In this document: positions 5,672 to 51,535 of the stretch, one piece after another
Numbering within the stretch: position 1 is the first letter of the stretch
Layout of the letters: each line of letters opens with the position of its first letter
DNA from: Qipengyuania sphaerica
Lineage (GTDB): Bacteria > Pseudomonadota > Alphaproteobacteria > Sphingomonadales > Sphingomonadaceae
Assembly: GCF_019711595.1 (NCBI RefSeq)
Contig: NZ_JAIGNR010000001.1
Span: 186,001-250,000 of the forward strand
DNA: 64,000 nucleotides
Reading direction: 5' to 3'
Position numbers and translations under genes: made by a program
The notes under the pieces: generated by a model
Seen by the model: the letters and a program-made list of their open reading frames with translations, nothing else
What the model was told of the DNA's origin: nothing
The model's database searches: none

Positions 5672-5702
5672 ACTTTCCACCGCCAAGCGCCTAATTGCAG
5701 TT

Positions 5703-7743
<2,041 letters not shown>

Positions 7744-48913: not shown

Positions 48914-49189
48914 ATGCAAACACGCGAAACCAACCGACAGGGATCGAATATCGTCCTCAATTGCCGCACGCCGGTGGCGCGTGCGCAGGCAATTCTGTGC
49001 GATATCTCCCATACGGGTTGCCGCATCGAATTGTTCGATGGCCATGTGAGTAAGGGCCAGACCATTTTCTTCGAGATCGACGAGCGCAACGAACTTGCCG
49101 GCCAGATCATGTGGGTGCGTGGTAACGAGGCGGGCGTAAAATTCATGCACAAGCTGAGCGCAGTCATCCGCAACACGCTAGAGCTCTAG
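48914..49189 (+). CDS. PilZ domain protein
   Basis: A 91-residue protein that is essentially a single PilZ domain: RETNRQGSNIVLNCRTPVARAQAILCDISHTGCRIELFDGHVSKGQTIFFEIDERNELAGQIMWVRGNEAGVKFMH. The arginines near the N-terminus and DISHTGCRI match the c-di-GMP-binding motifs (RxxxR and D/NxSxxG) imperfectly, so ligand binding is plausible but not certain. Single gene, convergent with the ATP-grasp gene by 4 bases. Confidence 0.85.
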   Translation: MQTRETNRQGSNIVLNCRTPVARAQAILCDISHTGCRIELFDGHVSKGQTIFFEIDERNELAGQIMWVRGNEAGVKFMHKLSAVIRNTLEL

Positions 49190-50073
49190 GCTAGCCTCTT
49201 AACCACAGCCTCTGCCAATTTTTTACCCAGACCGGGACCCTGCTCTGGATAGAGATAGGGTTCGATCGCCTCGGCCTCCATCACGGCGAGTTCGCCCGAA
49301 GGCAGGCGCGCCATGTCGATGCGGCAGTACAGCAGGTTGTCGAAAGGCAGTGCCGCCACGACTGCCTCGGCCTTGGCCAGGTCGTCGGGAGCGGGCGAAT
49401 AATCCGCTTCGTATCCCCCGAATAGCGATTGGATCCGGTATTCGCCTTCCGCCGCGCGCTTGAGAACGCCGTGGCTGAACTCCCCGTCGATGAAAACGAA
49501 GGTGTATTCGCCTTCTACCACAAGGCTGGGAAGGAAGGGCTGGATCATGCAGGCACGGCCCATCTGCCAGCGGTCGCCGGGCAGGGTGTCCTGCGTGAAA
49601 CTATGCTGTCCAAGTCCGCCAGCACCGACCTGGCGTTTCACGACGACACGGTCGACGCCGAAATCGGCCATGGCGACGCGGACATCCTGCCGCCCGGCAT
49701 CGCCCAGCCACATGGTCGGGACTACGGTTGCGCCGCGCTCCTCGAGCTCCCGCAAATAGGATTTCTCGGTGTTCCACCGCACGACGGCGGGCGGGTTGCA
49801 GACCTTGATGCCCTTGCCAGCCAGCGCCTCGAGTTTCACGAGGAATTCGGTCGGGTGGTCCTGATAGTCCCACGCGGTGCCCAGCAGCACCATCGCCATG
49901 CCCTCGAAATCGCCCAATGGCGAGCGCCAGTCGATTTCGACCAGCTCCAGTCCCGCTTTATCGAACGCCGGACGTAGCGCGGCGACCTCGATATCGTGCT
50001 CGAACGCATCACCCCGCCGGGGGCCATCCCCCGGCAGCGTGTCGGCGCAGGCGAGGAAGCCGATCTTGCTCAG
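49186..50073 (-). CDS. ATP-grasp protein with probable CTG start codon
   Basis: A protein of about 295 residues with ATP-grasp features: FGVDRVVVKRQVGAGGLGQHSF (ATP-binding strand and Gly loop), ACMIQPFLPSLVVEGEYTFVFIDGEFSHGVLKR and VMEAEAIEPYLYPEQGPG (metal-binding acids), like DcsG and peptide-type ligases. The natural N-terminus begins (C)TG-AGC-AAG, read as M-SKIGFLACADTLPGDG. The CTG at 50071-50073 overlaps the TGA of the preceding gene and follows a GGAGG site. No ATG, GTG or TTG start suits this N-terminus. The substrate is unknown. Confidence 0.78.
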   Translation of the reverse strand: MSKIGFLACADTLPGDGPRRGDAFEHDIEVAALRPAFDKAGLELVEIDWRSPLGDFEGMAMVLLGTAWDYQDHPTEFLVKLEALAGKGIKVCNPPAVVRWNTEKSYLRELEERGATVVPTMWLGDAGRQDVRVAMADFGVDRVVVKRQVGAGGLGQHSFTQDTLPGDRWQMGRACMIQPFLPSLVVEGEYTFVFIDGEFSHGVLKRAAEGEYRIQSLFGGYEADYSPAPDDLAKAEAVVAALPFDNLLYCRIDMARLPSGELAVMEAEAIEPYLYPEQGPGLGKKLAEAVVKRLA

Positions 50074-51377
50074 ACTGCCTCCAGCGCCTGTTCGAAATCG
50101 GCGATCAGATCGTCGGGATCCTCGATACCGATCGAGATGCGGATGAGGTTGTCGCCGATGCCCAGCGCCGCCTTGCGCTCGTCGGGCACCGAGAGATGCG
50201 TCATCGAGGCGGGGTGGCTGGCGAGCGTTTCGGTCCCGCCGAGGCTGACCGCGAGCTTGGCGATCTTGAGCGCATCGAGGAAGCGGAAGCACTCCGCCTC
50301 GCCGCCCTTAAGCAGCAACGAGAATGTCGAGCCCGCTCCGAGGCAATGGCGATCGTAAATGTCCTGCTGTCGCGCATCCTTGATCATGCCGAGATAGCCG
50401 AGGCCTTCGACTTTGGGATGCTTCGCAAGGTATTCGCAGACCTTGGCGGCGTTGTCGCCCGCGCGGCTCATGCGCAGTTCGACCGTCTCGAGGCTGCGCA
50501 GGAGCATCCACGCGGTGTTGGGATCGCAGATGCCGCCCATCGTGTTGCGCAGCATGCGCACGGGGTCCATCCACTTCTTGGCGCCCGCGATCGAGCCCGC
50601 AACGAGGTCCGAATGGCCGCCGACATATTTGGTCAGCGAATAGCAGACGATGTCCGCGCCATGGTCGAGCGGACGCTGCCACAGCGGGCCGAGGAAGGTG
50701 TTGTCGATGGCAATCGGGCAATCGAGCTTCGCCGTATCGACCGCGGCGCGAACGGCCTGCACGTCGACCAGCGCATTGGTCGGGTTGCCCGGGCTCTCGA
50801 GGTAGACCATCGCGACCTTGCCGCCCTGCTCGTCAGCCTTGGCCTTGGCCTTTTCGAGGACCGCGTCGATTTCCTCGCGCGTGGCGCCGGCCGGGAAGTC
50901 GACATAGCTCACGCCCCAGCGCGACATCCACTTGGCGACGAACCCTTCGGTGGCGGCATAAAGCGGGCCCGAATGGACGATGACATCGCCCTGGCTCGCA
51001 TAGGTTAGCAGCAGCACGCAGATCGCGGTCATGCCGGAAGAGAAGGAGAGCGCGTCCTCAGCCCCGTCCCAGATCGACAGGCGGTCTTCGAGGATTTCCT
51101 GATTGGGCGCATTGAAGCGCGAATAGACGAGGCCGTCCGCGCCTCCCGGGCGCTTGCCGGTGATGCCTTCGAAATGACGCTTGCCATCGGCCGCGCTCGG
51201 GAAGGCGAAGGTGCTGGTCAGGAAGATCGGCGGCTTGAGACTGCCTTCGGACAGCGTCGGATCGAAGCCGTGGCCCATCATCAGCGTGCTGGGCTTGAGT
51301 TCGCGCCCCGCAATCTTGGTGACTTCGGGCCTGGGCGCCATGCGCGGGGACGTGGGGTCGATTTCGTGGTCGCTCAT
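50070..51377 (-). CDS. cystathionine gamma-synthase/methionine gamma-lyase family PLP enzyme
   Basis: A 435-residue fold-type I PLP enzyme. RFNAPNQEILEDRLSIWDGAEDALSFSSGMTAI, VYLESPGNPTNALVDVQAV (His/Asp pair region) and CYSLTKYVGGHSDLVAGSIAG (Lys that binds PLP in SLTKYVGGH) are diagnostic. It is longer than typical MetB (about 380) by an N-terminal extension. It acts in trans-sulfuration or sulfur amino acid breakdown. A structured leader and strong AGGAAGG site lie upstream, and the ATP-grasp gene is coupled downstream. Confidence 0.9.
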   Translation of the reverse strand: MSDHEIDPTSPRMAPRPEVTKIAGRELKPSTLMMGHGFDPTLSEGSLKPPIFLTSTFAFPSAADGKRHFEGITGKRPGGADGLVYSRFNAPNQEILEDRLSIWDGAEDALSFSSGMTAICVLLLTYASQGDVIVHSGPLYAATEGFVAKWMSRWGVSYVDFPAGATREEIDAVLEKAKAKADEQGGKVAMVYLESPGNPTNALVDVQAVRAAVDTAKLDCPIAIDNTFLGPLWQRPLDHGADIVCYSLTKYVGGHSDLVAGSIAGAKKWMDPVRMLRNTMGGICDPNTAWMLLRSLETVELRMSRAGDNAAKVCEYLAKHPKVEGLGYLGMIKDARQQDIYDRHCLGAGSTFSLLLKGGEAECFRFLDALKIAKLAVSLGGTETLASHPASMTHLSVPDERKAALGIGDNLIRISIGIEDPDDLIADFEQALEAV

Positions 51378-51480
51378 GCGAAGAGCATCCTTCCTAGTGA
51401 CACGCTCCCAGGAAGGCGGGAGCCGGTGGCCTATCCGGGGCGCCCGTTCCTAACCTCCGCAGGAACGCCTCTCCACCGCA
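51378..51480 (-). ncRNA. candidate structured leader RNA of the gamma-synthase-family gene, unrecognised class
   Basis: On the minus strand the 5' leader can form a 6-bp stem (51473-51478 with 51424-51429), a nested 7-bp hairpin (51461-51467 with 51445-51451), and an adjacent 6-bp hairpin (51418-51423 with 51404-51409). The loop of this last hairpin (51410-51416) is fully complementary to the ribosome site AGGAAGG (51389-51395). This looks like an aptamer plus expression platform. It does not match SAM-II, SAM-SAH, SAH or TPP classes that I know. Pairings are visible; function is inferred. Confidence 0.45.
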
Positions 51481-51535
51481 TGGCCGTTATGGCCCGTGCC
51501 ACTATTGCGGACAGGGAGCGGAATCAACTCCGTGG

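Follow-up and report, generated by a model that had tools for sequence, protein, structure and literature searches.

In the guanidine-II riboswitch, a proposed kissing of hairpin loops would free the ribosome site. SAM-II, SAM-SAH and SAH riboswitches precede methionine and SAM-cycle genes of proteobacteria, as described in the available part of PMC4239095. The same source describes the metXZ RNA element of betaproteobacteria, a predicted element before methionine biosynthesis genes that occurs in one copy per genome, has alternative foldings and is followed by a potential terminator ahead of metX or metZ. The odc1 element, a leader element tested with a Sphingomonas representative, works through a uORF (available part of PMC8632094).

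Here we describe a short RNA leader in a 64,000-nucleotide stretch of the Qipengyuania sphaerica genome (the window) that, like the SAM-cycle riboswitches and the metXZ element, precedes a gene of sulfur amino acid metabolism. None of 4227 Rfam models matched the leader of the window at E<=5. Across 20 homologous loci nothing at E<=1 overlapped the leader, including SAM-II, SAM-SAH, SAH and Guanidine-II. The preliminary description of this locus had likewise found no fit to the SAM-II, SAM-SAH and SAH folds, and this agrees with the covariance models of those three families, which match the leader neither here nor in the 20 homologous loci. Unlike the metXZ element, the leader has no terminator-like site, precedes another gene and occurs in another bacterial class; unlike the odc1 element, it has no conserved upstream frame. 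The RNA elements listed for a Novosphingobium genome in the available part of PMC4059872 include no such leader, the consulted main text of PMC11109978 and PMC8632094 mentions neither Erythrobacter nor cystathionine, and the leader is described in none of the matches listed from the open literature, to which the search was confined.

Anatomy of the leader and its target gene

The leader is about 110 bases long and occupies a cis-acting position. P1 encloses an internal loop and P2; a variable linker follows, and then come P3, the AGGAAGG ribosome binding site and the start codon of the target gene at 51377 on the minus strand. The features are as follows (alignment A1 and the tree test are described in the next section).

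51378-51485, minus strand: leader RNA, directly before the gene at 50070-51377
51473-51478, minus strand: P1 5' arm, CGGUGG with U51475 bulged; conserved outer helix
51436-51440, minus strand: P1 3' arm, CCCCG; conserved partner, replacing the earlier-proposed 51424-51429
51468-51472, minus strand: internal loop, 5' side, AGAGG; most sequences have AGAUG, and AGA never varies in alignment A1
51441-51444, minus strand: internal loop, 3' side, GGCG; alignment A1, differing forms in other genera
51461-51467, minus strand: P2 5' arm, CGUUCCU; 98.4% of cells paired, tree test
51445-51451, minus strand: P2 3' arm, AGGAACG; pairing and tree test
51452-51460, minus strand: P2 loop, GCGGAGGUU; core GGAGGUU(A) nearly invariant
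51418-51423, minus strand: P3 5' arm, GCUCCC; paired in 99.3% of cells, with three of six pairs showing two-sided changes
51404-51409, minus strand: P3 3' arm, GGGAGC; pairing and tree test
51410-51417, minus strand: P3 loop, GCCUUCCU; complementary to the ribosome binding site and to the P2 loop
51389-51395, minus strand: ribosome binding site, AGGAAGG; complement of the P3 loop
50070-51377, minus strand: target gene, cystathionine gamma-synthase family protein (NF005455/PRK07049, 661.7 bits, cut-off 504)

The core of the P2 loop, GGAGGUU(A), itself looks like a ribosome binding site. A start codon with a preceding ribosome site was found in 174 of 176 homologous leaders; the distance from P3 to the start is 14-32 bases in 158 of these 174 and more than 40 bases in the other 16. 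Long leaders (L023, L068-L072, L088, L101, L187, L254 and others) often add a G+C-rich hairpin, for example GUUGCGGGC...GCAGCGCCC.

For the closest solved chains of the target protein, 5ijg and 7swh, the names go no further than a Cys/Met metabolism enzyme in one case and a putative cystathionine gamma-synthase in the other. The genome encodes two further, distant paralogues. One is nearest to O-succinylhomoserine sulfhydrylase models and stays below their cut-offs (narrowly for TIGR01325, with 496.8 of 510), and the other exceeds the cut-off of a cystathionine beta-lyase model. Since the paralogues resemble these sulfhydrylase and beta-lyase models, the target is a third, less defined enzyme.

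In the window, a DASS anion symporter gene lies upstream of the leader on the same strand; a relative is present in 92 of 120 among the named loci listed, a count of presence on either side and either strand that includes some short loci. The gene after the target (49186-50292, minus strand) has as its best NCBIfam match the model of the D-cycloserine synthetase DcsG, at 109 of 360 bits, far below the cut-off. The genome carries one copy of the leader. Elsewhere in the window, positions 5699-5807 on the plus strand match the TPP riboswitch with 59.8 bits, against an Rfam gathering score of 54.3.

Comparative evidence for the helices

The folding energy of the single sequence is ordinary (z -0.96, with 34 of 200 shuffles equally stable), and the case for the leader is therefore comparative. 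Alignment A1 comprises 29 of the 30 best blastn loci; L023, in which the ribosome-site part is replaced, was dropped. In A1, 93.3% of cells are paired and two-sided changes occupy 26 cells, against 6.6 in shuffles; the covariation score is reached by none of 500 shuffles of the 29 sequences. When RNAalifold was run on A1 with no structure supplied, it recovered both P2 and P3 and, of P1, the inner two pairs without the outer ones. The named set of at least 120 loci, 100 of which were carried into one later step, contributed 99 distinct sequences. These are 95.1% paired, with two-sided changes in 191 cells against 54.2 and a covariation score equalled by 0 of 500 shuffles, in an alignment that was fitted to the model and is thus biased towards it.

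For P2 and P3, pairing was also followed along a tree of the target protein. In this test the helices were cut by position beside the loops, giving 13 pairs over 176 leaders; L066, whose loop is altered, was left out, as were duplicates and 12 loci with short gene pieces. The two helices underwent 81 co-changes, 69 of which kept the pair, and random re-pairing gave a mean of 18.5 and a maximum of 53, none of 2000 trials reaching 81. The outermost P3 pair had four co-changes and kept the pair in none of them.

P1 shows two-sided changes at all six pairs in the model-fitted alignment of 99 distinct sequences, where the outer four pairs are paired in 82% of cells and the inner two in 97%. At least five unbroken pairs form in 60% of homologues, compared with 38% in a swapped-arm control. 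In the single-sequence ensemble P1 has a probability of 63%, and P3 reaches just 3% when the ensemble is nested.

Comparison shows that P1, P2 and P3 covary, and compensatory base changes keep the helices, as in a structured cis-regulatory RNA. Covariation among homologous leaders had been proposed beforehand as a check whose failure would count against the leader, and it is seen in A1, in the 99 sequences and on the tree. We regard a structured, gene-linked RNA family as practically certain.

These alignments also bear on the fold that had been drawn earlier. The 7-bp hairpin 51461-51467/51445-51451 and the hairpin 51418-51423/51404-51409 are present where they had been placed and are conserved as P2 and P3, and, as had been noted, AGGAAGG (51389-51395) has its exact complement in the P3-loop bases CCUUCCU (51410-51416). 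The earlier closing stem, 51473-51478 with 51424-51429, can be drawn in this sequence but shows no conserved pairing across 176 homologues. Allowing the best of five slides, all six pairs form in 2.8% of homologues against 5.3% with swapped arms, and five of six form in 33.5% against 27.4%; the stem was rejected. Judged from the alignments, the true conserved outer helix joins the 5' arm 51473-51478 to 51436-51440. With one of three stems wrong, the preliminary description is confirmed in part. Its interpretation is likewise supported in part: a structured leader acts in cis ahead of a gene of sulfur amino acid metabolism, with covarying stems and a conserved arm complementary to the ribosome site.

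Distribution and gene linkage

By blastn, the leader is present in 64 of the 199 genomes sampled from the host's family, and the target gene lies behind it in all of the best 30 loci. The covariance model R1, built from A1, matches 146 of 396 sampled genomes of the host's order at E<=0.01. These matches split into 126 strong ones (E<=2.8e-7) and 20 weak ones (E 1.8e-5 or worse). In each of the 51 strong-match loci that were fetched, the leader stands just upstream of the target gene. Nine weak matches were fetched (L062-L064 and L075-L080); the target gene is in the fetched stretch in none of them, and eight of the nine match both strands. Because they are without the target gene and two-stranded like palindromic repeats, the weak matches were counted as false, and these nine loci, in other genera, are probably such repeats.

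A pattern derived from the alignment, run over species genomes, found at least 120 loci, and in 120 of 120 among the matches listed it lies on the same strand just before the target gene. The leader thus holds a fixed position just upstream of one gene. The 80 named matches listed include Erythrobacter, Qipengyuania, Parerythrobacter, Aurantiacibacter, Altererythrobacter, Citromicrobium, Porphyrobacter, Tsuneonella, Blastomonas marina and Sphingomonas rhizophila, together with bins resolved only to family, order, class or phylum. By genus, at E<=1e-5, R1 matches 11 of 11 genomes of g48, 4 of 71 of g78 and 11 of 99 of g96. In the host's class it matches 3 of 385 sampled genomes at E<=0.001, all of them in the host's family. 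A viral scan with a looser pattern gave five matches, with the target gene at none of the five loci.

The target gene is more widespread than the leader. The preliminary description had counted absence of the leader from orthologues against its proposal, and such absence is found in part: the gene is present in 249 of the 396 order genomes at E<=1e-150 and the leader in 126. A rescan of the regions upstream of 20 orthologues, all in genomes that lack a strong match, gave only two chance-level matches (E 0.15 and 0.29). These leaderless orthologues belong mostly to other genera, with a few from g67 and g96, which also contain leader-bearing members. The leader is absent from orthologues elsewhere and so marks part of the family; where it is absent, the target gene is regulated otherwise or not at all.

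Upstream sequence signals

No sigma-70-like promoter in the leader of the window passed a strict scan. The aligned block of the 176 homologues begins at the position corresponding to 51485. GTTGAAA occurs in 65 of them, at a distance of 36-45 bases ahead of the block in 62, and GATAAT occurs in 21, at 16-25 bases ahead of it in 18. This placement would fit a promoter just upstream of P1 in some homologues. AACCGGTT is found in 29 of the 176 leader-bearing loci, 25 times at 41-55 bases before the block. By eye, several of the leaderless orthologues (L121-L140) have imperfect palindromes before the gene, of the type GTTGCAA..GAAACTA or GTTTCAATTGTAACC, which look like a transcription factor operator. 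GAAAC occurs in 14 of the 20 leaderless upstream stretches, near the chance level for 700 bases.

Conserved loops and their alternative partners

The P2 loop keeps GGAGGUUA in 95 of 96 distinct genes found by the model, and the P3 loop keeps GCCUNCCU in 96 of 96, under a model that rewards these loops. The variable base of GCCUNCCU is U in 85 genes, C in 10 and G in one. L066 retains GGAGGU alone of the P2 loop core. The set of 176 leaders requires TGNGGAGGUUA and GCCUNCCU by construction.

In 131 of the 176 leaders, compared with 6.2% of shuffles, an unbroken run of at least six P3-loop bases is complementary to the sequence ahead of the start codon; in 105 of these 131 leaders, 7-9 bases separate P3 from the match. 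A gap of this size suits classic pseudoknot geometry. Among the 45 leaders without a six-base complement, some have mis-called start codons (regions of 0-6 bases), which the count scores as misses, and others are real exceptions. Judged by complementarity, the 131 leaders would possess an expression platform of riboswitch type, in which the ribosome site is masked.

The P2 loop can also pair with the P3 loop, through six pairs of which two are wobbles. The two pairings of the P3 loop use the same bases and are therefore mutually exclusive. Computed duplex energies are -11.0 kcal/mol for the ribosome site with the P3 loop, -9.5 for the ribosome site with the 16S end, -7.3 for the P2 loop with the P3 loop and -10.7 for the P2 loop with the 16S end. 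From these energies one would expect an OFF resting state and a kissing state that forms only with assistance; the P2 loop could also bind the ribosome directly.

Variants of the leader inform both pairings. In the long leaders, with a start more than 40 bases from P3, GCCUUCCU is kept in 14 of 16, as expected if the P3 loop has a second partner; GGAAGG is still present, further off, in six of the 16, which counts against that reading. The P3-loop variant GCCUCCCU, present in 10 of 96 genes, has a stronger computed pairing to the P2 loop (-10.2). Such loci in genera g48 and g78 (L271, L273-L276, L278, L281 and L282) often have GAGGA as the ribosome site, which matches the loop over fewer bases than elsewhere. 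L279 and L280 combine GAGGA with an unchanged P3 loop, so loop variant and ribosome site do not strictly covary. In three of the 176 leaders (L088, L184 and L218) the loop is GCCUGCCU, which has no match to their own ribosome sites and pairs slightly more weakly with the P2 loop (-6.7). Because variation in the P2 loop is so slight, the loop-loop pairing has no covariation readout.

Proposed mechanism and alternative explanations

The leader is probably a translational ON switch and a new riboswitch class, as far as its sequence and conservation indicate. The upstream domain consists of P1, the conserved internal loop, P2 and the nearly invariant GGAGGUUA, followed by the anti-ribosome-site hairpin P3 with GCCUUCCU. 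In the resting state the P3 loop would pair with the ribosome site, either as a pseudoknot or once P3 opens, and translation would be low. Something may then stabilise the upstream domain; a small sulfur amino acid metabolite is the likeliest candidate, and the conserved internal loop and the P2 loop would be the natural place for it. GGAGGU of the P2 loop would kiss GCCUUC of P3, the ribosome site would be released and translation would rise. Translational control through the ribosome site is likely, and ligand-driven switching stands at about even chances. As a whole, the account of a short cis-acting leader with resting-state masking, a ligand-stabilised kissing loop and a freed ribosome site is somewhat favoured. 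Its most specific form, a new class of riboswitch that senses a sulfur amino acid metabolite and in which a ribosome-site-mimicking aptamer loop captures the anti-ribosome-site loop and so releases the real site, is tentative, at slightly less than an even chance. Counting against the model are the 45 leaders without a six-base complement, the loose covariation of P3-loop variants with the ribosome site, the mismatched GCCUGCCU loops, the outermost P3 pair and the low probability of P3 in the nested ensemble. The title of PMC7544219 questions whether the two guanidine-II hairpins interact at all, a warning for the present model.

Alternatively, a protein, or else the enzyme itself, may read the leader, with the P2 and internal loops as the protein site and P3 masking the ribosome site. 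Autogenous control would suit the single target gene of the loci examined and the one copy in this genome, and the P2 loop contains GGA, the core of many RNA-protein sites. CsrA is the best-known binder of GGA loops, but it was not found in this genome, by a search that gave a match in 3 of 14 control genomes, and a CsrA-controlled leader was rejected on that basis. We consider a protein reader unlikely. A plain RNA thermometer or constitutive attenuator, with the ribosome site masked by P3 or by an extended hairpin and no part for a ligand, agrees with the nested ensemble, where every base of the ribosome site is paired with the P3-loop strand at 0.95-0.96. Such a device appears improbable, as it leaves the covarying P1 and P2 and the invariant P2 loop unexplained, none of which is needed to hide the site.

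Two further explanations place the function outside this cis arrangement or in a peptide. The CCUUCC loop resembles the anti-ribosome-site loops that some alphaproteobacterial small RNAs carry, and the leader, or a piece cut from it, could act in trans as such an RNA. Its position directly upstream of one gene in all 120 of the matches listed speaks against this, as does the leader of the window, in which no terminator-like site was found, and we hold action in trans to be distinctly improbable. A leader peptide ending at the UAG of the P2 loop, with an amino acid sensed through ribosome stalling, would draw on a start codon (ATG, GTG or TTG) that lies in frame with this UAG and no more than 33 bases from it in 111 of 176 leaders. 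The other 65 have no in-frame start, the P2 arm is, by eye, one base shorter in many g48 and g78 leaders, which shifts the frame, and changes in P2 track base pairing in the tree test. An upstream peptide or attenuator was rejected because its frame is not conserved, and we give it very little weight.

Relationship to known riboswitches

The leader adds a well-supported RNA family, unmatched by the 4227 Rfam models, to a large bacterial group. The two-state switch proposed here is a clean model with nearly invariant loops and a named target gene, and it is open to simple mutants. A ligand, if identified, would help fix the substrate of the PRK07049 family, whose name leaves the reaction unsettled.

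The loop sequences of guanidine-II riboswitches differ from those of the present leader. What the leader shares with Guanidine-II (mini-ykkC) is a pair of hairpins between whose loops a ligand-induced kissing contact has been proposed (available parts of PMC7544219 and PMC9300104). Unlike in guanidine-II, the first hairpin of the present leader has an extra helix and a conserved internal loop; the target gene is also different, and the Rfam model gives no match. By analogy in mode of action, guanidine-II, of which the leader is not a member by sequence, would be its nearest relative.
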